NCBI GenBank assembly: GCA_023382935.1
Contig: JAHDXL010000005.1
Location: 365,503 to 429,502 of the forward strand
Reading direction: 5' to 3'
DNA length: 64,000 nucleotides
DNA from: Phycisphaerales bacterium
GTDB taxonomy: Bacteria; Planctomycetota; Phycisphaerae; Phycisphaerales; UBA1924
Part shown: positions 2,276-53,083 of the stretch, piece after piece
Position numbering within the stretch: the first letter of the stretch is position 1
How the letters are laid out: each line of letters opens with the position of its first letter
The notes under the pieces: generated by a model
Seen by the model: only the letters and a program-made list of their open reading frames with translations
Databases searched by the model: none
Told to the model about the DNA's origin: nothing
Position numbers and translations under genes: made by a program

Positions 2276-3115
2276 TTGCCGCCACTGCTGGCTTGGTTCT
2301 TGACATGGCTGGCACTGCTTGCGGCGATCGGCCTTTGGTGGGTCGTACCGCGGTGGTACGATCGCGCCGGAAGTCGCGCGGCCGCCTGCCGGAGTTGCAG
2401 TTATTCGCTGTCCGGGCTGCCCGGCACGGTGTGTCCGGAGTGCGGCGCGTCATTTTCTTCCCAGTTCGAACTCGTCCATGATCGGCCGCCCGCTACTTTG
2501 CGCGTGGCACGCTGGGGTCTGCTTTTCCTGCTCTTGATAACTGGAGTCTCGGCGCTGGCGTTGCACGCGACTCCAGTCCTGCCCGTCTCCACCTCTTGGA
2601 CTTGGCGATTTGATGGACGACCAGAGTCGAGCGCGTATTCGACGATCGCGATCACCGGGCGGGTGACCGAGTGGTCGCTTGGCGCGGCGACGGTGCCTTC
2701 GCGTCTGCCTCAGACGTTCACTGTCTCGCTCACCGCCCACTCGGGCAAGTTGCACAATCTCGACGTTTCAGGAGCGCGTGACGAGACACAGCGCATTCGA
2801 CGCTGGCTGTTGGAAAGTGTGACATACACAACTCCTTCGGACAGCGAACGTGAGGCCCAAGTCGTCGCGCGACTCGTTCACGCAGGCCTTGCTTTGGATC
2901 GGTTGCCTGACCAGTTTGCGGCATCGGTCGATCCAGCGGACTCAAGACCCGTCTTTCGCACCGTCAGCCTGGGCGTGAGCGGGCGCCCGATCTGGTCGGG
3001 TGAACTCTCCTTGATCTGCCTGGCGCTCGCATTCTGCGTCGGAGTCATCTGGCTGACTGCTCGGTTCAACCCGGCCCGAAGGCTGTTGAAGAGAGTGCGC
3101 GGGGCGGCACCATGA
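2276..3115 (+). CDS. Zinc-ribbon membrane protein of unknown function
   Basis: The start is a TTG with a good Shine-Dalgarno sequence (GGGGAGG at 2261-2267). The 279-residue product begins with a membrane segment (about residues 4-24), then has a zinc-ribbon with CxxC and CPEC pairs (CRSCSYSLSGLPGTVCPECG). A second hydrophobic segment lies at about 80-98 and a third near the C-terminus at about 247-265. The layout suggests a cytoplasmic zinc-binding loop and an exported central domain. The gene sits between two paralogues and overlaps the second by four bases (ATGA), which implies translational coupling. I do not recognise the family beyond the ribbon. Confidence 0.7.
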   Translation: MPPLLAWFLTWLALLAAIGLWWVVPRWYDRAGSRAAACRSCSYSLSGLPGTVCPECGASFSSQFELVHDRPPATLRVARWGLLFLLLITGVSALALHATPVLPVSTSWTWRFDGRPESSAYSTIAITGRVTEWSLGAATVPSRLPQTFTVSLTAHSGKLHNLDVSGARDETQRIRRWLLESVTYTTPSDSEREAQVVARLVHAGLALDRLPDQFAASVDPADSRPVFRTVSLGVSGRPIWSGELSLICLALAFCVGVIWLTARFNPARRLLKRVRGAAP

Positions 3116-3963
3116 CCACCAACGTTTCGGAGCGGTTGCACTTCATTCCTGTCTTGGCTCTCGCCGCAGCCGTCATCATGGGCGGGCTGCTCATCATCCG
3201 GACGCTTCAGTGGAAGGGCTCGCACCAGATTCTGCCGCCGCCGCGCATCGACCTGCGCGTTTTGGTCAATGGGCAAGCACCCAGGGTCAACCGGTATGGC
3301 GTCATCTGCGTCACGCCCGGTGACGAAATCACGCCGCTGATCGACGTCGACTGGCATGGACAACCGCCGGGCACTCTGACCATGACGTTCGGAGGCCGGC
3401 ACCTGGCGAACGGTGAAGTCTTTCGCCCGTCGGGCATGGGCATGGGCGTGGGCGTGCTTCGTGCAGAGGCGCAGGCCGGCGTGACGAACGGGATTGCCAT
3501 GCCGGCTTCGGATCGGCTTGAGTTCGAGGTCACCATGCATCCTCGCTTCGACGCCGAGGCCCAAGTGCTGAGCGTGGAAACGGGCGAGACCGGGCCACTC
3601 GACATCCGAGCGATCGTCGTGCGTCTGGCCAGTCAAGAGATCGACATTCAGAACATCTGGCTCACGCACGTGAGTTTGCATGTGCCTGTCGCTGAACTGG
3701 ATGACGACATCCTGCCCGTCGCCCAAAGACCGGTTGGGGACACTCAGACCGAATCCGGCCCGGCCTATGCCGCCCGATTTGCGGACGGCGCATGGACGTT
3801 GCGCTTCGAGCGAGCGGAAGATGCGCCCCCGTTGCACGCATGGCCGAAGGAGATCCTGCTCACGGGGAGCGGCTGGCGAGGCGACCAGACGATCGAGTTC
3901 TTCGCCACTGTGTCGTTGCCCCCAACCGTCGGCGACGCCAGGGACGCGTCTCCGACGGAGTAG
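3112..3963 (+). CDS. Membrane-anchored hypothetical protein, copy B of a tandem paralogue pair
   Basis: This 283-residue protein has an N-terminal membrane segment at about residues 13-28 (LALAAAVIMGGLLIIRTL) and an exported domain homologous to the product of 1415-2245. Shared landmarks are the IDVDWHGQPPG motif, LDIRAIVVRLASQEIDIQNI matching LDISAVTVQIWSDELDMQSI, and the C-terminal ADGAWTLRF and EILLTGSGWRGDQTIEF blocks. Its ATG overlaps the stop of the zinc-ribbon gene, so expression is probably coupled. The duplication has diverged strongly, which suggests an old event with separate roles rather than recent amplification. Function is unknown. Confidence 0.7.
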   Translation: MTTNVSERLHFIPVLALAAAVIMGGLLIIRTLQWKGSHQILPPPRIDLRVLVNGQAPRVNRYGVICVTPGDEITPLIDVDWHGQPPGTLTMTFGGRHLANGEVFRPSGMGMGVGVLRAEAQAGVTNGIAMPASDRLEFEVTMHPRFDAEAQVLSVETGETGPLDIRAIVVRLASQEIDIQNIWLTHVSLHVPVAELDDDILPVAQRPVGDTQTESGPAYAARFADGAWTLRFERAEDAPPLHAWPKEILLTGSGWRGDQTIEFFATVSLPPTVGDARDASPTE

Positions 3964-4140
3964 GTCTCTGGCAGATTGAACTGCCGAGTGCCCCGGTTCA
4001 CTACGCTTGCGCAGCAATCAGGCTTCGCAACCTGCGAAACCTGCGCGGGTGCAATAAGAACGGGTGTTGCGGGCAGGCAAGCGGGTCAGGACACGGGCGG
4101 AGGCGACGGCCGCGCAGGGCTTGCTGCTTTTTTCGGCGCA

Positions 4141-4350
4141 AAATCGATGTCGCGCGCGGGGAAAGCGCTGTTGCGCGCGAGAATTCAGTCGTCGCGCGCA
4201 AGGTTTTGGTCGTCGCGAGCGACAGAAGACATCCCGCCCGCGACCAAATGCACGTCCTCTCTGACCAAACGCATCCATTCTCTGACGGATGACGTGTCTG
4301 TTGTCGCCGATCAGGCCTCTTTTCGGGCCGAAGACGCCTCACCCGTCGGC
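4141..4350 (+). repeat. Ten degenerate 21-bp tandem repeats
   Basis: Cutting the sequence every 21 bases from 4141 aligns ten units. Unit starts are 4141, 4162, 4183, 4204, 4225, 4246, 4267, 4288, 4309 and 4330. Most units open with an A-rich or GA-rich triplet (aaa, gaa, gat) and close with a GCGCGC-, GCGAC- or CTGAC-like end; examples are the units ending tcgcgcgcgggg, ttgcgcgcgaga and tctctgacc. In the + strand frame shared with lpxK each unit encodes seven residues with S/R-R/L-A/T near the end (for example KALLRAR, IQSSRAR, FWSSRAT, KCTSSLT, KRIHSLT). Units differ widely in sequence but the 21-base period does not slip. Confidence 0.75.
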
Positions 4351-4422
4351 CCTTCTTCACGATCTGGCCCCATCCACCACTGCGCCGAAGACGGCGAGTG
4401 GTGGCACCCGACAGGCACCACC

Positions 4423-4441
4423 ATCGGCTCGGAGAGCCGAT
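4423..4441. repeat. Perfect 8-bp inverted repeat in the lpxK leader region
   Basis: ATCGGCTC and GAGCCGAT are separated by the three bases GGA. There is no T-run on either side, so a simple intrinsic terminator is not supported. It could be an RNA hairpin or a protein-binding site about 100 bases before lpxK. Confidence 0.4.
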
Positions 4442-4542
4442 CGACCCATAGGGTGCAATGCCTCCCCCCGATGGCTGATCGAGTCCCTGGTCCCTTCTTC
4501 CCGATGCCGCGTTGCCCCCTCCGCATTCCCTACCCTCCCCCA

Positions 4543-5562
4543 ATGCCTTCCCGTCTCCTCCTTCCCCTCTCCCGCCTCTATCTCGCCGAACTGGCGCGGC
4601 GCAACCGGGCGTTCGACCGTGGCCGCGGCGTGCGGACGCTGCCCATCCCCGTCCTCAGCGTCGGCAACCTCTCCGTCGGCGGCACCGGCAAGACGCCCAC
4701 GGTCCGCACCCTCTGCGCTTGGCTCCGCGACGCCGGCCACACGCCCGCCATCGCCATGCGCGGCTACAAGCCCGGCCCTCAAGGGTCCGACGAGGCACTC
4801 GAATACCGCCGCCTCCTGCCCGACACGCCTGTCATCGTCCGCCCCGACCGCTACGAGGCCATCACCGAGTTCCTCGCCACCTCCGCCCACGGGTCGGCCA
4901 CCTACAGCATCGACTGCGTCGTCCTCGACGACGGCTTTCAGCACCGCCGCCTCTCGCGCGTCTTCGATCTCGTGCTCATCGACGCCTCGCGTTGGCCGTA
5001 TGACGACGCGCCGCTGCCCGCGGGGCGTCTGCGTGAGTTGCCCAGTTCGCTCGTCCGTGCGCAAGCCGTGCTTATCACCCATGCAGAACTGGTCACGCAG
5101 AACCAGATCGCCCAACTCGAATCGCGGCTTGGTCGCGAGCATCCGCACCTGACGATCGCCGTGGGAGAGCACGCTTGGTCGGGCGTGCAGGTTCGGGAAG
5201 GCGGGAGCCCTCCCGTGCGTCACTCTCTCGATTGGCTGCGTGATAAGCGCATCGTCGCGGCCTGCGGGCTGGGCAATCCCGCCGGCTTTTTCGCCGCCGC
5301 CGAGCGTGTGCTGGGGCACCAGCCGGTGGAGACGATTGTCCTGCCCGATCACGCGGCGTTCGGCGCGGCCCAGCGTGCCCGCCTCGCCGCGGCGGTCCGA
5401 CGTCACCAGGCCGAATGTGTGCTGATCAGCCTCAAGGACGACGTGAAAATCGCCAAGCCGGCGGACCTGGGCGTGCCCGTCGCCGCGGCCCTGCTCGACC
5501 TGCGTTTCTGGACGGGCGAAGCCGAACTGCGAAGCCGCGTGCTGAGCGCCGTCGGCTCGTAA
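4543..5562 (+). CDS. lpxK: Tetraacyldisaccharide 4'-kinase
   Basis: LpxK phosphorylates the 4' position of the tetraacyl disaccharide 1-phosphate to give lipid IVA, at the cytoplasmic face of the inner membrane. The 339-residue length is typical. The P-loop is GNLSVGGTGKTP at residues 41-52, and the family motif DDGFQH is at about 129-134. Residues before this ATG are low in complexity and unlike the family, so 4543 is preferred over the ATG at 4503. No Shine-Dalgarno sequence is visible because the start lies in a pyrimidine-rich tract. hldE follows on the same strand, which fits a lipopolysaccharide locus. Confidence 0.93.
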   Translation: MPSRLLLPLSRLYLAELARRNRAFDRGRGVRTLPIPVLSVGNLSVGGTGKTPTVRTLCAWLRDAGHTPAIAMRGYKPGPQGSDEALEYRRLLPDTPVIVRPDRYEAITEFLATSAHGSATYSIDCVVLDDGFQHRRLSRVFDLVLIDASRWPYDDAPLPAGRLRELPSSLVRAQAVLITHAELVTQNQIAQLESRLGREHPHLTIAVGEHAWSGVQVREGGSPPVRHSLDWLRDKRIVAACGLGNPAGFFAAAERVLGHQPVETIVLPDHAAFGAAQRARLAAAVRRHQAECVLISLKDDVKIAKPADLGVPVAAALLDLRFWTGEAELRSRVLSAVGS

Positions 5563-7855: not shown

Positions 7856-9625
7856 TTACGGACACCCACTTGAGAACGCATTGAGGAACGACTGCACGTC
7901 GAAGAAGTTGAACTGCCCGTCGTTGTTGAAGTCGCCGCCCGGCTGCTGTGAACTGAACAGGTTCAGCCACTGCAGAACATCGAAGAAGTTGAGCACGCCG
8001 TCGCCGTTGATGTCGGCCCGGCACGGAAGCGGCGAGAGCACCGACGTCGGCTTGGACAGCACCATTTCATCCAGGTTGATACCCCGGATCTCGAACGCCT
8101 CGATCAGTTCGAAGGGCGGGGCACCCTCGGCGAGCAAGCGCACGTCGTCGCCCACGACCACCACACCAGCCGCTGATATGAACAGATCGGTCCCGTGCGG
8201 ATAGCACATTTGCAGGCAAGGCGTCTGCCCGCCCAGTTTCCCGAACTTCCAGGGCCAGGAGTGTGATGCCAGCGCCTGCCCGGTCAGGCCACCCTGGCTC
8301 CAGACCAGATTGCCGTGGTCGAAGACCTGCAGCCGATACGTGCCCGCTCCGACGCCGTTGAAGTTGGGCACCAGCGCCAGCCAGTCGGGGAACTGCGGAT
8401 CGGGGTCGAGCAGCACGGTGCCGCCGGGCCCGCCGCCCAACTGGATCGACCGGAACTCTGCACAAGGCGGCACACCCACGGAAGGATCGATCCAGATTTC
8501 GGTGCTCGCGCTTTCGACCCCGCCCCAGGCCAGCCGGATACCGTCCTGCCCGGTCGAGCCGATGTTTTGCAACTGCAAGTCTGGCAATCCGTCGGCATCA
8601 GAATCGACTCCTTGCAGGTGGATCGACTCCGAAGTCGGGAGCGCGCTGCCGAAGACACCGACCGTCGAGTGCCGGGGCGGAGGCAGTTTGGGGAGGCTCG
8701 AAGCGTCTCCAAAGCCGATGCCCACCGGAAACTCCAGCGGCAAAAGGTCGATGCTGCTCAGATTCAGCGCGACGATTTCAATGTCGATGGGGGGGAACAT
8801 TTCGCCCGGACCCACTAGGTGCGGCACCACCACCATGCCGTCTCCGCTCGCGCTCACAGGCCCGGCCATGAATGTGATGTTGCCCTCGAACTCCGCCCCG
8901 TACGAACGCTCGGTGTAGATGAAATCGGGTGTCTCGATCTTGATGGTCTTGCACCAGACATGCAAACTCCCGATTCGGAATCGCGATTCGGGTATCAGGC
9001 GGACCGAGCCGCTGGTCTGATTCGGAAACACCCCGACGACCTGCCCTCCACTGAGCACCCGCACGTCGAACGTGTCTTGCAAAGGCTCGGCGAAATCGGC
9101 CAGCAGCGTCGCTTCGACGTCGCTCGTACCCATGAGCGTCATGGAATCAGTTGTCGATGCGCTGTTGAAGTTGATCGCGACGCCAGACCCCGCCGAACCA
9201 TCCCAGACACTGCCGGGAGACTCTGCCCCCATCGATGTCGATCCGAGCGGGATGGAGACTCCCCACGGGCCGTTGACCGGGTCGCCGGCAACCTGCAGCG
9301 TCTGCCCAGACAAGTTCAGCGCCGCTCCGCCGAGCGACTGGTACTCAAGCCCGCCGACCAGGATCGTCGCGGCCGTCGCCTGTCGAACTCCCAGCGACAT
9401 CACCAGGTGCCGACCTCGGAAGCCCAGCGTTGCCAAGTTCACAAAGTCCGGTTCCTCGCACGGGTCGCTGCGGAGGTAGGTCGGCGCGCTCTGACCGGCC
9501 CCGTTGAAGCCCAACTGGATCAGCCCGCCGCCGAGATCAGCCGGGTGCTCGGTGCGCCTGGCCTTGACGATCGAAGCCGCCCGCTCGATTGCGTCCGGAT
9601 CCTGGCCCCTGCCCACAAGTCGCAA
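7856..9625 (-). CDS. Dockerin-tagged (GC-type) protein, apparently lacking a signal peptide
   Basis: The 589-residue frame ends with two EF-hand-like dockerin repeats, DINGDGVLNFFDVLQWLNLF and DFNNDGQFNFFDVQSFLNAF, followed by SSGCP. This is the tag typical of Phycisphaerae surface proteins. The body is beta-rich and has no enzyme motif that I recognise. The frame begins at a weak TTG (9623-9625) three codons after an in-frame stop. The first residues (GRGQDPDAIERAASIVKARR) are not a signal peptide, which is odd for a surface-tagged protein. Either the 5' part was lost, a frameshift separates it, or the true export route differs. It is convergent with the ASCH gene. Confidence 0.75.
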   Translation of the reverse strand: MRLVGRGQDPDAIERAASIVKARRTEHPADLGGGLIQLGFNGAGQSAPTYLRSDPCEEPDFVNLATLGFRGRHLVMSLGVRQATAATILVGGLEYQSLGGAALNLSGQTLQVAGDPVNGPWGVSIPLGSTSMGAESPGSVWDGSAGSGVAINFNSASTTDSMTLMGTSDVEATLLADFAEPLQDTFDVRVLSGGQVVGVFPNQTSGSVRLIPESRFRIGSLHVWCKTIKIETPDFIYTERSYGAEFEGNITFMAGPVSASGDGMVVVPHLVGPGEMFPPIDIEIVALNLSSIDLLPLEFPVGIGFGDASSLPKLPPPRHSTVGVFGSALPTSESIHLQGVDSDADGLPDLQLQNIGSTGQDGIRLAWGGVESASTEIWIDPSVGVPPCAEFRSIQLGGGPGGTVLLDPDPQFPDWLALVPNFNGVGAGTYRLQVFDHGNLVWSQGGLTGQALASHSWPWKFGKLGGQTPCLQMCYPHGTDLFISAAGVVVVGDDVRLLAEGAPPFELIEAFEIRGINLDEMVLSKPTSVLSPLPCRADINGDGVLNFFDVLQWLNLFSSQQPGGDFNNDGQFNFFDVQSFLNAFSSGCP

Positions 9626-9681
9626 GGACGATCAGAGTTCTGTTGCGAGTGGGGCAGAAGCCCTGGGGAGTCTGCCTTATT

Positions 9682-9712
9682 CCGATAATCACTCGTAGTG
9701 AAAATTATCCGG
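9682..9712. promoter_or_regulatory. Imperfect inverted repeat in the spacer before pntAA
   Basis: GATAATCACT pairs with AGTGaaaATTATC around the loop CGT: ten base pairs with a three-base bulge, AT-rich in an otherwise GC-rich region. It lies between the divergent TTG gene at 9625 and pntAA at 9910. It could be an operator or an RNA hairpin. Confidence 0.35.
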
Positions 9713-9856
9713 TCCGATAGAAAAGTTGTGTCCGTGTGATCCCGCGGCACACCCGCCATGCAGTGGGACTTGAAACGCGGTAGGCTGCGGACTCGGGCAG
9801 TCAGATTGCGGGGTATTTCCCTCCACCGCATTCTTGCAAATCATTTGATGACCCTG

Positions 9857-9886
9857 TTGTCCTCTTTGGTTGGTGAGGACTATCAT
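9857..9886 (+). promoter_or_regulatory. Candidate promoter of the pnt operon
   Basis: TTGTCC at 9857-9862 and TATCAT at 9881-9886 are separated by 18 bases, 23 bases before the pntAA ATG. The spacing fits a sigma-70 type promoter, but both boxes are only partial matches and planctomycete promoters are poorly defined. Confidence 0.3.
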
Positions 9887-9909
9887 GTGGTCCTTTCACG
9901 GAGGCCTGG

Positions 9910-11049
9910 ATGCAGATCTTCGTCCCACGAGAGACCGATCCGTCCGAGACCCGTGCCGCGGCCTCGCCTGACTCCGTTGCCAGACTCTGCAAACTCGGAG
10001 CGAGCGTCACCGTCGAAGCCGATCTCGGGAAACACTGCCACTGGTCCGACGCCGAATACGAAAAAGCCGGGGCCACCGTCACCCGCGACCGCCCTGCTGC
10101 ATTGGCGAGTGCCGACCTGGTGCTCAGCGTCCGCAAGCCGGACGGGCCGACCATCGCGCGACTGAGACGCGGGACTGTCACCGCCAGTTTCCTCGATCCA
10201 TTCACTCAGCGTGACTTGGTCGAGCAACTCGCCGGTGCGGGCATCACCGCGATCAGTCTGGAACTGGTGCCCCGCACGACGCTGGCGCAGAAACTGGACG
10301 CGCTTTCGAGCCAGCACTCGGTGTGCGGGTACTACATGGTGGTGCTGGCGGCCGAGCGGCTGGGCAAACTCATCCCGATGATGTCCACGCCCGCCGGTGT
10401 CATTCAGCCCGCTCGCGTGCTGGTAATCGGGGCCGGCGTCGCCGGTCTTCAGGCCATCGCCACGGCTCGGCGTCTCGGTGCCCGCATCGAGGCTTTCGAT
10501 ACGCGGCCGGTCGTCAAGGAGCAGGTCGAGTCACTGGGGGCCAAGTTCGTTGAGATCGACCTGGGCGAGACCGGGCAGACCGAGGGCGGGTACGCCCGCG
10601 AACTGACCGACGAGCAGAAGAAGCGTCAGCAGGAAGGCTTGAAGCAGGCCATCGGGCGTGCCGACATCGTGATCACCACGGCCAAGCTGTTCGGCCGCTC
10701 AGCCCCGATCGTTGTGACGCGCGACATGATCAGCGTGATGAAGCCCGGCTCGCTCATCATCGACTACGCAGTCGACTCTGGCGGCAACGTGGAGGGCTCG
10801 AAGCCCGACGAGGAAGTGGTGATCGACGGTGTGCGCGTGATCGGCTTCTCGAATTTCCCCGGCAAGGTGGCCGTGGACGCCTCGCGTGTGTATGCCAACA
10901 ACCTGGCCTCGCTGACCGAGATCATGCTCGACAAGGAGAGCAAGGCTCTCAAACTCAACTTCGAGGACGAGATCATCCGCGGATGCGTGGTAACCCACGA
11001 CGGGAAGATCGTCAACGAAACGGTGATCAAGAGTTACGCCCGCGCCTGA
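9910..11049 (+). CDS. pntAA: NAD(P) transhydrogenase subunit alpha, part 1 (NAD(H)-binding domain I)
   Basis: This soluble 379-residue domain I binds NAD(H) and passes hydride to NADP+ on PntB, driven by the proton gradient. It starts like alanine dehydrogenase-family proteins (MQIFVPRETDPSETRAA) and carries the Rossmann motif VIGAGVAGLQA near residue 175. The length matches the three-gene type (PntAA, PntAB, PntB) known from Rhodospirillum rubrum rather than the fused E. coli PntA. The ATG has a GGAGG ribosome-binding site. pntAB follows after 18 bases. Confidence 0.93.
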   Translation: MQIFVPRETDPSETRAAASPDSVARLCKLGASVTVEADLGKHCHWSDAEYEKAGATVTRDRPAALASADLVLSVRKPDGPTIARLRRGTVTASFLDPFTQRDLVEQLAGAGITAISLELVPRTTLAQKLDALSSQHSVCGYYMVVLAAERLGKLIPMMSTPAGVIQPARVLVIGAGVAGLQAIATARRLGARIEAFDTRPVVKEQVESLGAKFVEIDLGETGQTEGGYARELTDEQKKRQQEGLKQAIGRADIVITTAKLFGRSAPIVVTRDMISVMKPGSLIIDYAVDSGGNVEGSKPDEEVVIDGVRVIGFSNFPGKVAVDASRVYANNLASLTEIMLDKESKALKLNFEDEIIRGCVVTHDGKIVNETVIKSYARA

Positions 11050-11067: not shown

Positions 11068-11358
11068 ATGTATCTCACACTCGCACTGGTCTTCCTGCTG
11101 GCGATGTTCCTTGGGCTCGAACTGATCCGCAAGGTTCCGTCGCAGTTGCATACTCCGCTGATGTCTGGCTCCAACGCCATCTCGGGCATCTGCATCATCG
11201 GCGCGATGGCTCTGGCGCCTTTGACCGAAGACAACCTCTTCGCCCTCTTGCTGTCATCCGCGGCCGTCGCGTTCGCCGCGATCAACGTGGTCGGCGGCTA
11301 CGTCGTCACCGACCGGATGCTCGCCATGTTCCAATCCAAGAAAGGTGAGTCGAAGTGA
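11068..11358 (+). CDS. pntAB: NAD(P) transhydrogenase subunit alpha, part 2 (membrane domain)
   Basis: This 96-residue protein consists mainly of three hydrophobic segments (about residues 4-22, 34-54 and 60-82) and forms part of the proton channel, domain II. The motif VPSQLHTPLMSGSNAISGI is characteristic of the family. A GGGAG ribosome-binding site precedes the ATG. Its stop overlaps the GTG start of pntB (GTGA), so the two membrane subunits are probably translated in step. Confidence 0.93.
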   Translation: MYLTLALVFLLAMFLGLELIRKVPSQLHTPLMSGSNAISGICIIGAMALAPLTEDNLFALLLSSAAVAFAAINVVGGYVVTDRMLAMFQSKKGESK

Positions 11359-12806
11359 ACTACGTCGCATCGGTTCTCTTTCTGCTGTCGGCCGTGGGAT
11401 TCATCTTCGGGCTGCGGATGCTGCGCGCTCCGGCGACGGCGCGCAAGGGCAACATGGTCTCCGCGGGCGGCATGCTGGCGGCGATCGTCGGAACCCTGCT
11501 CGTCACCATTGACCAAGGGCACTTCAATACCCTGGCGGCCCTGACGGTGCTCGGCGGCATCGCCGTCGGCACGGCCATTGGCATCCCCGCTGCCAAACTC
11601 GTCAAGATGACCGCCATGCCCGAGATGGTGGCGCTGTTCAACGGGTTCGGCGGCATCGCCAGCCTGCTGATCGGCTGGGGGCAGACCCAGGAAGCGGTGG
11701 CCCACGCCTCCAACCTGGCCGAAGTCGAGGACAAACTCATCGCCCTGACCGGCGGGCAACCCAACGTCGTCACGCTGGCGACTTTCCTGGCGGTCCTCAT
11801 CGGCGGTATCACCTTCACCGGCTCGGTCGTCGCCTGGGGCAAACTCTCCGAGCACCTGACATCCAAGCCCGTTCTCTACCCCGGGCAGAACGTCGTGAAC
11901 GGCCTGGCGGTTCTCGGCTCGATCGCGCTGGGCATCTGGTTCACCATGCAGCCCGACCAGATCTGGCTGCTCTACATCATCATCCCGCTCTCTTTCGTGC
12001 TCGGCGTGGCGGTGGTCATTCCCATCGGCGGCGGCGACATGCCGGTGGTCATATCGCTGCTGAACAGTTACTCTGGTCTGGCCGCCTGCGCCGCCGGCTT
12101 TGCGGTCAACAGCCCCCTGCTCATCATCATCGGCGCCCTCGTCGGCGCGTCGGGCCTCATCCTCACCCGCATCATGTGCGTCGCGATGAACCGCAGTTTG
12201 GGCAACGTGCTCTTCAGCGGATTCGGCGCCGTCTCCACCACGGGCGGCATCACGGCCACCGGCGAGAAGAAGGAAGCACGCATCCTCAGCCCACAGGACG
12301 CTTACTTCGTCCTCGAAGCCGCCCAGAGCGTCATCTTCGTCCCCGGCTACGGCATGGCCGTCGCCCAGGCCCAGCACGCCGTCAAGCAACTGGCCGATCT
12401 GCTCGTCAAGAACGGATGCGACGTCAAACACGTCATTCACCCCGTCGCCGGTCGCATGCCCGGTCACATGAACGTGCTGCTGGCCGAGGCCAACGTCGAG
12501 TACGACCAACTGGCCGTCCCTGAAGATATCAATCCCTCCATGGAATCGGTCGACGTGGCGATTGTCATCGGCGCCAACGACGTGGTGAACCCGGCCGCAC
12601 TCACCGACAAGGCAAGCCCCATCTACGGCATGCCCATCATTGAGGTGCATCGCGCCCGGGCCGTCTTCACGCTCAAGCGCTCTCTTGCGTCCGGCTACGC
12701 CGGCATCGACAACCCGCTGTTCTACCTCTCCAACAACTCGATGGTGCTGGGCGACGCCAAGAAGACCATCGAGGCTCTCATCGCCGAGTTCAAGGCCGAG
12801 GACTAG
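11355..12806 (+). CDS. pntB: NAD(P) transhydrogenase subunit beta
   Basis: PntB (483 residues) provides the remaining proton-channel helices and the NADP(H)-binding domain III. The N-terminal two thirds have about nine hydrophobic helices. The C-terminal domain III begins with the conserved FVPGYGMAVAQAQHAVKQL segment and carries HPVAGRMPGHMNVLLAEA and a GANDVVNPAA motif typical of NADP binding. The start is GTG, overlapping the pntAB stop. The complete pnt set implies membrane-linked NADPH generation. Confidence 0.95.
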   Translation: MNYVASVLFLLSAVGFIFGLRMLRAPATARKGNMVSAGGMLAAIVGTLLVTIDQGHFNTLAALTVLGGIAVGTAIGIPAAKLVKMTAMPEMVALFNGFGGIASLLIGWGQTQEAVAHASNLAEVEDKLIALTGGQPNVVTLATFLAVLIGGITFTGSVVAWGKLSEHLTSKPVLYPGQNVVNGLAVLGSIALGIWFTMQPDQIWLLYIIIPLSFVLGVAVVIPIGGGDMPVVISLLNSYSGLAACAAGFAVNSPLLIIIGALVGASGLILTRIMCVAMNRSLGNVLFSGFGAVSTTGGITATGEKKEARILSPQDAYFVLEAAQSVIFVPGYGMAVAQAQHAVKQLADLLVKNGCDVKHVIHPVAGRMPGHMNVLLAEANVEYDQLAVPEDINPSMESVDVAIVIGANDVVNPAALTDKASPIYGMPIIEVHRARAVFTLKRSLASGYAGIDNPLFYLSNNSMVLGDAKKTIEALIAEFKAED

Positions 12807-50551: not shown

Positions 50552-53083
50552 TCAGGGACAGCCGGCAGAGAACTGATTCAGGAAGGCGGAAACGTCGAAG
50601 AAGTCGAAGTTGCCGTCATGGGTGAAGTCGGCCTGGGGTTGACCACTCGCAAAGGCGGAGAGGAAGGCAGAGACGTCGAAGAAGTTGAGCACGCCGTCGG
50701 AGTTGAAGTCGGCGGGGCAGTCGATGGCATCGGCGATGGTGAAGCGGGCGAAGGCGTAGAGCCCGCTGGGGAAGGGCTCGGTGCGGGTGAGGTTGCCGAC
50801 GGTGTAGGTGAGCATGCCGCCCGGGGAGCAGTTCCCGTTCCGGGCTGCGTCGTTTCGGACGTGGAAGTTATTCGAGAAGGCCATGCCTTTGCCGCCGAAG
50901 CAGATGTAGTAGTCGCCGGCGGACAGGCGGCGAACGATCCGACTCTGCACCCCGCAGGCATCGTCGTTTTGTGAGAGCAACATGCCCTGCATGTCGTAGA
51001 GCGCAATCTCGGTGTCGAAGTCGCTGCCGCAGGTGGAGTAGGTGATGCTCACCCGGGGTTCGCCGATGACGCCAAGGTACTGGGCCTGATCGGGACCGAT
51101 GTTCTGGCAGGTGTCGGGGATTCCGTCGGCGTTGCAGTCGAGTTCGCAGGCGTCGGGGACGCCGTTGCCGTCGCAGTCGGGATCGAGCGGGTCGTGAATG
51201 CCGTTCCCGTCACAGTCCTGGAAGTTCAGCGCTCGCAGGTGCAGAGTGGGAACGAGTTCCCATCCGCCAAGGTTGCGAGCCTCGCGCATCATGTAGAGTT
51301 CGGCCTGGCTCTGGTCGCAGAGCATGAGCAGTTCGACGCGGTGCCAACCCTGGCGCAACTGCACGAAGTTCTGGGGGGAAACCCAGGAGCCGGCGTCCCA
51401 GTAGTTTGGAATGGCTGGGCGGTTCAGTGCTCCGATCAACGAGCCGTCGACCCACAACTGCATGGGCGAGGTGTTTCGAACCCGCAGCGCATACTCATCG
51501 TGAGCGGGCGCGAACATCCAAGCGGACAGGCGAATCACGCGCGTCTGAGTGTTCGGGAACGTGGCCGTGGTGCTCATGTCAGGGACCAGCCCGCTCTCGG
51601 TCAGCGTGACGTCCGGGCTGTCGGGATTGAAGTTGTTCAGGTTCGTCAGCCCTGGCGTGAGGTAGACAGAGCGGTGCACTCCCAGGTAGGCGAACGGCGT
51701 GCCCTGGCCGGGGAGGAAGGACTCGCACTCATCGGGGCGTGAGTCGCCGTCAACGTCCTGGGAGGAGCCGATCAGGATGTCGGCCAGGTCGGGCACGAGA
51801 TTTGCGTTGCAGTCGCCCGAGGTTTCAGGAATCACCACGCTCCAGCCCATGTCGTCGAGAGGCTGGTAGTCAGCGCGTGTCCAGAAGTTCGGGCAGCGCG
51901 TGCGCCCGACTGCCGATACCGGGTCCATGATTCCGAGTTTGGAGTTGAAGTCGGACCGATACTCCAGGTGAGAAGGCTGATGGGAGTCGCCCGATTCCAG
52001 GGCCGTCACGTAACCATTCGGCCAACTGGAGTAGAAGTGCTGTTCATTGATGTAGCCGGCGCCGATGCGGGTGTTGCCGGCAAACGTGGCCGCGCTGAAC
52101 GGCAGGTTCACGAACCGGAACCGAGCGATGTCGAGCCCCTCCGGAGCGCCCCATCCCTGCCCGCCCTGGTCGATGGTGCTGGTGAAGCCGAGAGAGTGCG
52201 TGAACTCGTGCACTGCCACGTCGGCCAGCGACTGCCGATTGCTCGGCAGAGAGTTACAACTGAAGAAGTGCCAACTGGTCCTGGTGTTGAAACTGAGCGT
52301 GGTGGCGGTGGCCGGACCGAGCACGTTCTCGCCGAAAATGGCGCGCAACTGCGCATCGGTGACGCGGACCTGGGTCTGGTCGACGACGCCTCCGCTGGAG
52401 TTGATCATCGGGAGAGAGGCAGTGGGGAGCCCCATCGCCAAGGCGCTATCCTCGCGCACCTGGGAGGCACGCAGGCCTTCGACATAGACCGACCAGGGCA
52501 GCGTGAAGCGGGTGCTCGAGGCGGTACCGATCGCATTGTCGTTGCTTGGGTTGGAGTCGGTCGAGAAGTCGTACGCATCGAGCAGGATGCGCGTGGTGAC
52601 GCGGTTGTCGAGCGAGTCGGCGATGTACTGGGCGGCCGAACGAATTGTGGGCAGGTAGAAGGCGATCAGCGTCGGATTGGTCTGGTCGTACACTAACTCG
52701 AAGCGTGGGGCGATGCCGACAAACTCGCTGGACGAGCGCGTGCCGGTCTCGGTCTCGAAGTCGCGCCGGGCGTGGGCGTAGAGGTCTTCGACCGAAGCCG
52801 TGGCCCCTTCCGGCCCGCAAATTCCCTTGTACACGCGCTCGCGGGCCATGATGCCGAGGGCCCGTGCCTCCTGGGGCAGGTCGAGTGGCACGACCAGTTC
52901 GGGGTGCTCTGGCGAGCCCTCCACGCGGGCCAGCGCGAGCAAGGTCGCAATCTGGTCGGGTGTGCGGGCTGACTCGATCTCACTCGGCTCGGTTGGGTGG
53001 GTGATCGGAGTGGGGGCGGGCGTTGGACCTTGCACAGAGACCAGGTTGCCTGCGACGGTGGCGATGAGGAGGGTGATATTCAT
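50552..53083 (-). CDS. Dockerin-tagged exported HExxH metalloprotease-like protein
   Basis: The 843-residue protein has a short hydrophobic leader (MNITLLIATVAGNLVSVQG). A zinc-protease core carries HEFTHSLGF near residue 291. A following region has calcium-binding-type repeats (DVDGDSRPDECE, DCDGNGVPDACELDCNADG). The C-terminus has two dockerin-like repeats, DFNSDGVLNFFDVSAFLSAF and DFTHDGNFDFFDVSAFLNQF, ending in SAGCP. The HExxH motif suggests a zinc-dependent peptidase active outside the cell; the third zinc ligand is not certain. The tail matches that of the gene at 7856-9625. Substrate unknown. Confidence 0.85.
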   Translation of the reverse strand: MNITLLIATVAGNLVSVQGPTPAPTPITHPTEPSEIESARTPDQIATLLALARVEGSPEHPELVVPLDLPQEARALGIMARERVYKGICGPEGATASVEDLYAHARRDFETETGTRSSSEFVGIAPRFELVYDQTNPTLIAFYLPTIRSAAQYIADSLDNRVTTRILLDAYDFSTDSNPSNDNAIGTASSTRFTLPWSVYVEGLRASQVREDSALAMGLPTASLPMINSSGGVVDQTQVRVTDAQLRAIFGENVLGPATATTLSFNTRTSWHFFSCNSLPSNRQSLADVAVHEFTHSLGFTSTIDQGGQGWGAPEGLDIARFRFVNLPFSAATFAGNTRIGAGYINEQHFYSSWPNGYVTALESGDSHQPSHLEYRSDFNSKLGIMDPVSAVGRTRCPNFWTRADYQPLDDMGWSVVIPETSGDCNANLVPDLADILIGSSQDVDGDSRPDECESFLPGQGTPFAYLGVHRSVYLTPGLTNLNNFNPDSPDVTLTESGLVPDMSTTATFPNTQTRVIRLSAWMFAPAHDEYALRVRNTSPMQLWVDGSLIGALNRPAIPNYWDAGSWVSPQNFVQLRQGWHRVELLMLCDQSQAELYMMREARNLGGWELVPTLHLRALNFQDCDGNGIHDPLDPDCDGNGVPDACELDCNADGIPDTCQNIGPDQAQYLGVIGEPRVSITYSTCGSDFDTEIALYDMQGMLLSQNDDACGVQSRIVRRLSAGDYYICFGGKGMAFSNNFHVRNDAARNGNCSPGGMLTYTVGNLTRTEPFPSGLYAFARFTIADAIDCPADFNSDGVLNFFDVSAFLSAFASGQPQADFTHDGNFDFFDVSAFLNQFSAGCP

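Follow-up and report, generated by a model that had tools for sequence, protein, structure and literature searches.

Mycobacterial and other VNTR or MIRU loci are intergenic tandem arrays whose copy number varies between relatives, with well-conserved units and one dominant family. Rickettsia palindromic elements are single palindromic copies of one family that occur both between genes and in frame inside them, and heptad repeats encoding coiled coils produce a 21-bp period in an open frame inside conserved proteins. Bacterial minisatellites are usually described by their unit sequence. In a survey of prokaryotic satellites (Subirana and Messeguer 2019, PMC6749651), the arrays are short and head-to-tail, about 40% have units unique to one array, and their distribution is patchy between species; most long units that are multiples of three are related to coding repeats, and transposed noncoding families, with units over 30 nt, are given only for Leptospira and Methanocella.

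The array analysed here lies upstream of lpxK in a 64,000-nucleotide stretch of a Phycisphaerales genome (the window). It belongs to a class that resembles those satellites in its short head-to-tail arrays, often array-specific unit sequences and patchy occurrence between species, but that differs from them in being noncoding with one fixed 21-bp period and varying units, a combination not seen in the abstract and Results of that survey; nor did the titles and opening lines of abstracts among the papers listed by open-access searches yield a description of a noncoding 21-bp class in Phycisphaerales. The arrays are intergenic and copy-variable, like VNTR and MIRU loci, but what they share is the period and not the unit. 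As with Rickettsia palindromic elements, they occur between genes and, in one case, in frame in an essential gene (valS of genome G012), although here the units are tandem and palindromy is at background. With coiled-coil heptads the lpxK array has in common a 21-bp period and an open frame, but it lies upstream of the LpxK domain and no counterpart was recognized at the lpxK genes of relatives.

An earlier note had proposed ten in-register 21-bp units with strong drift at this position, and the statistics bear this out (Table 1). Identity within the array is 0.55 at lag 21, 0.494 at lag 42 and 0.395 at lag 63, against a mean of 0.247 (sd 0.049) at other lags from 5 to 69, and the best lag between 7 and 63 in 1000 dinucleotide-preserving shuffles is at most 0.407. 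When lags L and 2L are combined for L from 13 to 44, L = 21 at this array is the top periodicity of the window (z 6.56; next 4.76). Leave-one-out profile scores of the ten units range from 4.2 to 13.6, seven of them above the window's 99.9th percentile (6.5). The array ends abruptly, its in-register neighbours scoring -3.0 (4120) and -13.1 (4351), and the limits given for it are correct. A scan for out-of-register units in the flanks gave a weak, doubtful displaced unit at 4058.

Table 1. Features at the lpxK locus (window coordinates) and further 21-bp arrays in the same genome
Feature	Position	Strand	Description
Open reading frame upstream of array	3112..3963	+	283 aa, no Pfam match
Array	4141..4350	.	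ten diverged 21-bp tandem units, contiguous, each exactly 21 bp, no indel
Unit starts	4141, 4162, 4183, 4204, 4225, 4246, 4267, 4288, 4309, 4330
Sub-block, units 1-4	4141..4224	.	11-16 of 21 identical among themselves (unit identity matrix)
Sub-block, units 6-7	4246..4287	.	14 of 21 identical (unit identity matrix)
Sub-block, units 8-10	4288..4350	.	10-13 of 21 identical (unit identity matrix)
lpxK	4543..5562	+	Pfam PF02606, E 1.2e-59; ATG at 4543, where LpxK homology begins
Array L041			before ABC-F gene
Array L062			between HEAT-repeat gene and type III glutamine synthetase
Array L077			before hisS-like gene; nine units
Array L084			between ABC-3 transporter gene and hsdR
Array L085			between trkH and cas12g gene
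Array L095			after oxidoreductase gene; two parts flanking a run of N

Mean identity falls from 11.6 of 21 positions between neighbouring units to 10.4, 8.3 and 7.5 at steps two, three and four. This decay with distance, together with the sub-blocks, is the mark of old local duplications and not of ten equal binding sites; it agrees with the view that the array is an old expansion and no recent microsatellite, as does the finding that in two other arrays of the genome neighbouring units still agree at 85-86% of positions. The strong divergence of the units explains why Tandem Repeats Finder (TRF; score threshold 30) reports just 2.4 copies, at 4173-4222. The array consists of head-to-tail tandem units within the 10-100 bp of minisatellites, but its units lack their homogeneity (adjacent units 55% identical, all pairs 42%), whereas other arrays of the class reach 0.86. 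BLAST of the array against its own genome returned the array itself and 17 matches with E values of 0.2-8.7. A CRISPR array at 4141-4350 was rejected, as the units are contiguous and there are no unique spacers. Elsewhere in the window, positions 50649-50859 carry its second strongest lag-21 signal (0.503), and TRF finds 2.8 copies of a 39-bp repeat at 51107-51217.

The open reading frame that contains lpxK extends from 3976 to 5562 (+) and so, as the earlier note stated, remains free of stops through the array; one frame on the minus strand is open too. The S/R, R/L and A/T endings that it assigned to the heptapeptides fit the units in the lpxK frame only loosely. Codon use over the array is not coding-like (mask 0.0), and, judged by homology and codon use, the array is intergenic. 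The protein predicted from the reading frame that precedes it matched nothing in five relatives with an E value below 0.24. It shares the motif VDVDW.G with the predicted protein of 1415-2245 (276 aa), which has no Pfam match, and the two may be diverged paralogues.

The lpxK gene itself is present in 59 of the 61 genomes searched, and we recognized no array at the 29 lpxK loci examined from other genomes. The nearest relative, a sister species in the window's genus (G002), has an LpxK 78% identical to that of the window; its contig breaks off about 214 bp before lpxK, so the part equivalent to the array, if any, is missing from the comparison. Among 29 lpxK loci from other genomes (30 loci were cut), none has an excess of at least 0.15 at period 21 once codon periodicity is subtracted, and two (L015, L036) have an excess of 0.152-0.153 at period 42. 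Raw 21-bp signals at six lpxK loci of relatives were set aside as coding-looking, on the basis of lists of open reading frames for L014 and L025 and by eye for L024, L036, L019 and L030. In 1.19 Mb of DNA from other organisms, covering 79 LpxK loci, none of the 14 strong TRF rows has period 21 and one has period 22; a period scan of 80 loci gave one 21-bp hit of at least 0.20 (L132), which looks like a coiled-coil gene. The LpxK nearest to that of the window (76%) is on a public record titled ‘Cyanobacteria bacterium CYA N2_1’ (RHKP01000005.1; L120), a title that looks wrong.

The 21-bp period recurs at other places in the window's own genome (G000), of which we scanned 81 stretches (1.664 Mb of 3.72 Mb; L numbers denote the DNA stretches examined) for periods of 14-47. 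To remove codon periodicity, each lag was corrected for the signal at lags that differ from it by 3 and 6 bases. The dominant period is 21 (with 42), and eight places, on seven arrays, have an excess of at least 0.20; these are the window array and the six further arrays of Table 1, and 400 kb of contig C3 contain no such array. All seven lie outside Pfam-supported genes. Coding-like codon use is 0.0 in five of them, 0.35 in L095 and 1.0 in L085, where five of the six frames are open and the array may be translated. Young and old arrays occur side by side in this one genome, with identities between adjacent units of 0.86 (L085), 0.85 (L095), 0.55 (window) and 0.52 (L041), and L062 and L095 contain 42-bp higher-order (dimer) units. 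That the period characterizes a class of arrays in this family goes beyond anything claimed in the earlier note.

By TRF, too, no other noncoding period between 10 and 50 bp comes close in frequency. Nine of the 14 noncoding rows in the sample with at least three copies and a unit of at least 10 bp have units of 21, 42 or 43 bp (several rows can fall on one array, and L085 is left out by the coding mask); the other five have units of 15 bp (two), 16 bp, 30 bp and 65 bp (the last at a CRISPR array), and 19 further noncoding rows have units of 7-9 bp. No additional noncoding array of 20-22 bp with at least three copies was found in the sample. Two-copy rows were found at L085 7229 and L211 12846, and new two-copy 21-bp duplications away from arrays are rare, with one in G000 (L211) and two in G002. 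Left out of the array count as coding-looking were L253 14716, L132 5776, L057 14719 and L230 19233, and also rows at L084 10481, inside the called gene hsdR, and L200 9666. Two of the intergenic regions that hold 21-bp arrays also hold arrays of other periods, one of 16 bp (L062 9714-9821) and one of 15 bp (L084 11348-11424).

No unit core common to all arrays emerged from 66 pairwise comparisons of unit profiles, in which six pairs reached p<=0.02 where 1.3 were expected by chance. Similar pairs include the window array and L077, which are alike around TCG..CGCGAC (zero to one of 1000 column shuffles as good, among 66 pairs tested), and L085 and L253 (p 0.005). The likeness of the window array and L077 could reflect common descent or be a coincidence among the many pairs.

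The class extends to the sister species and to two further genera. In G002 (0.72 Mb) one array was found by the period scan (L102) and another by orthology (L264); 20 stretches from seven genomes of the family (0.38 Mb) contain arrays in G012 (L254, L253) and G026 (L241/L242), and small samples of G017, G008, G004, G024 and G001 yielded none. Relatives carry the class at other loci, while none was recognized at the 29 lpxK loci. The G012 array L254 is intergenic, whereas L253 is inside valS, in frame, with heptads such as VEAPARS; ValRS matches from five other genomes end at query residues 306-312, and the array begins at about residue 308.

Orthologous loci of G000 and G002 reveal a patchy presence and turnover. 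An array lies 3' of the ABC-3 transporter gene (protein 86% identical) in both species (L084 and L264), and its unit profiles resemble each other more than column shuffles do (p 0.002-0.004) but nevertheless clearly differ. At the hisS-like locus (92% identical), nine units in G000 stand against two in G002, and these two can be aligned, flank included, with the final two of G000 without loss of register. The two loci thus show the variation between close relatives, in copy number or in sequence, that marks minisatellites. The ABC-F locus (87% identical) of G002 contains a short spacer with no array; G000, in turn, lacks one directly behind the gene at the L102 locus. A further short noncoding array of G002, 3.5 copies of about 22 bp, lies at L102 13394-13470.

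The drift in these arrays has rarely disturbed their register. Nine arrays require at least 236 substitutions, counted as states minus one per column, or 450 if units are compared with the consensus (valS and L085 included; L095, L264 and L241 excluded). Aligned noncoding DNA of G000 and G002 has 353 gap openings in 3842 mismatches (0.092), compared with 0.015 in coding DNA, and at the noncoding ratio about 22 or more indels would be expected. Without valS and L085, at least 198 substitutions correspond to about 18 indels. The scan for out-of-register flanks revealed a single clear shift, a 9-bp deletion in L102, and two doubtful ones (L062 10167 and window 4058), a count compatible with the at least 3.6 indels expected at the coding ratio. 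For the window array alone, 3.2 indels are expected at the noncoding ratio and none is seen (probability 0.04), or one if 4058 is counted. The comparison is biased, as indel-rich arrays are harder to detect and weak arrays can escape, although TRF tolerates indels. With that bias, the shortage of indels is the best evidence that spacing matters, and it upholds in part the suggestion of selection on spacing made in the earlier note.

We conclude that the lpxK array is real, is probably not translated, and is one of a lineage-specific class that keeps a 21-base step while its sequences differ. With moderate confidence we read it as a decayed intergenic minisatellite, belonging to a class particular to one Phycisphaerales family that expands in 21-bp steps and then decays with its spacing held. 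Each array would begin from local sequence, grow by 21 bp (sometimes 42) per step through slippage or unequal exchange, and later lose identity through substitution as its register stayed fixed. That slippage or unequal exchange is the motor is our inference; DNA geometry or a bound protein may favour 21 bp, and the array before lpxK presumably has no effect on that gene. The common period, the young and old arrays in one genome, the dimer units, the persistence with turnover at two orthologous loci and the shortage of indels were all observed for the class. Because the period is common to arrays whose units mostly differ, and because indels are few, something that fixes the step is called for.

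Several observations sit uneasily with a minisatellite origin. Pure neutral decay should have left many more indels than the one clear and two doubtful shifts, and the rarity of two-copy duplications means that a bias towards 21 bp at birth is not visible. The ABC-F locus of G002, the L102 gene in G000 and the 29 lpxK loci have no array, and the likeness of the window array to L077 means that certain arrays may have a unit in common, whether inherited or for some other cause. Given coding-like codon use over the whole of L085 and about a third of L095, some members of the class may be coding. Bacterial minisatellites being known by their units, a class known by its period would, if confirmed genome-wide, offer a natural setting in which to study what determines the step size in tandem amplification and whether register can be enforced by a DNA-binding protein that lacks sequence specificity.

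DNA makes one helical turn every 10.5 bp, and 21 bp is two turns. Two turns are the obvious candidate for the fixed step, although AT phasing, dyads, RNA folding and codon signals were all negative. A protein or oligomer that docks on successive units along one face of the DNA, tolerating drift while selection keeps the 21-bp register, would account for a period common to arrays with different units, for register kept where neighbours are only 52-57% identical, for the few indels and for the array that two species retain beside the ABC-3 transporter gene. We nonetheless regard such docking as a tentative and rather unlikely account, as it is opposed by the lack of a core in all arrays, by their patchy presence, by AT content, which by column has no component with p <0.05 at 21 or 10.5 bp in nine of nine arrays, and by unit dyads, whose frequency does not exceed that of random noncoding 21-mers (Fisher p 0.21 over 11 arrays; L254 alone p 0.01). 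Phased A-tracts or helically phased curved DNA were ruled out as there is no AT periodicity at 21 or 10.5 bp. Unit palindromes had appeared in L041, L077, L102 and L254 (p<0.01) under the weaker null of column shuffles and were not significant against random noncoding 21-mers, and a REP- or BIME-like palindromic repeat was rejected as dyad symmetry does not exceed background. A sequence-tolerant element selected for spacing, in which a protein of the family or DNA geometry holds a two-turn register over about ten units while the sequence is free to turn over, seems to us doubtful.

A translated heptapeptide repeat, for example one that extends LpxK at its N terminus or forms a small protein, is in our view very improbable. 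From 3976 onwards and across the array the lpxK frame contains no stop, the arrays before the ABC-F gene and the type III glutamine synthetase are in frames that stay open into the gene, and the frame of L095 remains open, across its run of N, as far as a thiolase domain some 1 kb further along; G012 valS holds one array of the class in frame, L085 has coding-like codon use, and indels are few, the single clear one being of 9 bp. At 65% G+C, however, long open frames are common; three of the seven G000 arrays (L077, L084 and L085) share no reading frame with the next gene, the window array is not coding-like in its codon use, and in G002, within the comparable 214 bp or so, a stop interrupts the lpxK frame 32 codons before its start. 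Substitutions between the units show no preference for a codon position: mismatches in the window array number 30, 31 and 24, and none of ten arrays has a bias, a test of little power and not diagnostic, as the surely coding valS array is equally flat. The earlier note's alternative of selection on a peptide is unsupported.

The position of the array upstream of lpxK, where a leader could be, is the sole point in favour of an RNA element (a hairpin array or leader) acting on that gene, which we consider highly improbable: 4120-4350 folds with unremarkable energy (z -1.05; 33 of 200 shuffles did as well), a search of 3900-4600 found no sigma-70-like or terminator-like site, and the only two Rfam matches, both at 4007-4054, are outside the array and below the gathering score. 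Coiled-coil-like coding sequence does produce weak 21-bp periodicity (L253 14590-14960 and L132 5650-5960, which from their sequence we take to be the arm of seryl-tRNA synthetase), but a chance or codon-periodicity artefact of a GC-rich genome is next to impossible, as none of the 1000 dinucleotide shuffles reaches the lag identity of the lpxK array, thereby refuting a chance origin, the borders are sharp and other arrays have nearly identical units.

The stretch L085, on contig C2 of G000, encodes a type V-G CRISPR–Cas system, with a Cas12g of 824 amino acids at 8443-10917 (+; PADLOC E 4.3e-297) and, after it at 11130-12050, 14 repeats of 36 nt, spaced at 65-66 nt. This Cas12g had no match in four relatives in a search run without a positive control. 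A second stretch of the G012 valS (L253 18909-20000, P0001 residues ~40-80, QSGKV...HSAT...) matches 22 further rows of G012, some overlapping, in open and in broken frames, and is a dispersed short repeat that likewise lies in frame in an essential gene.
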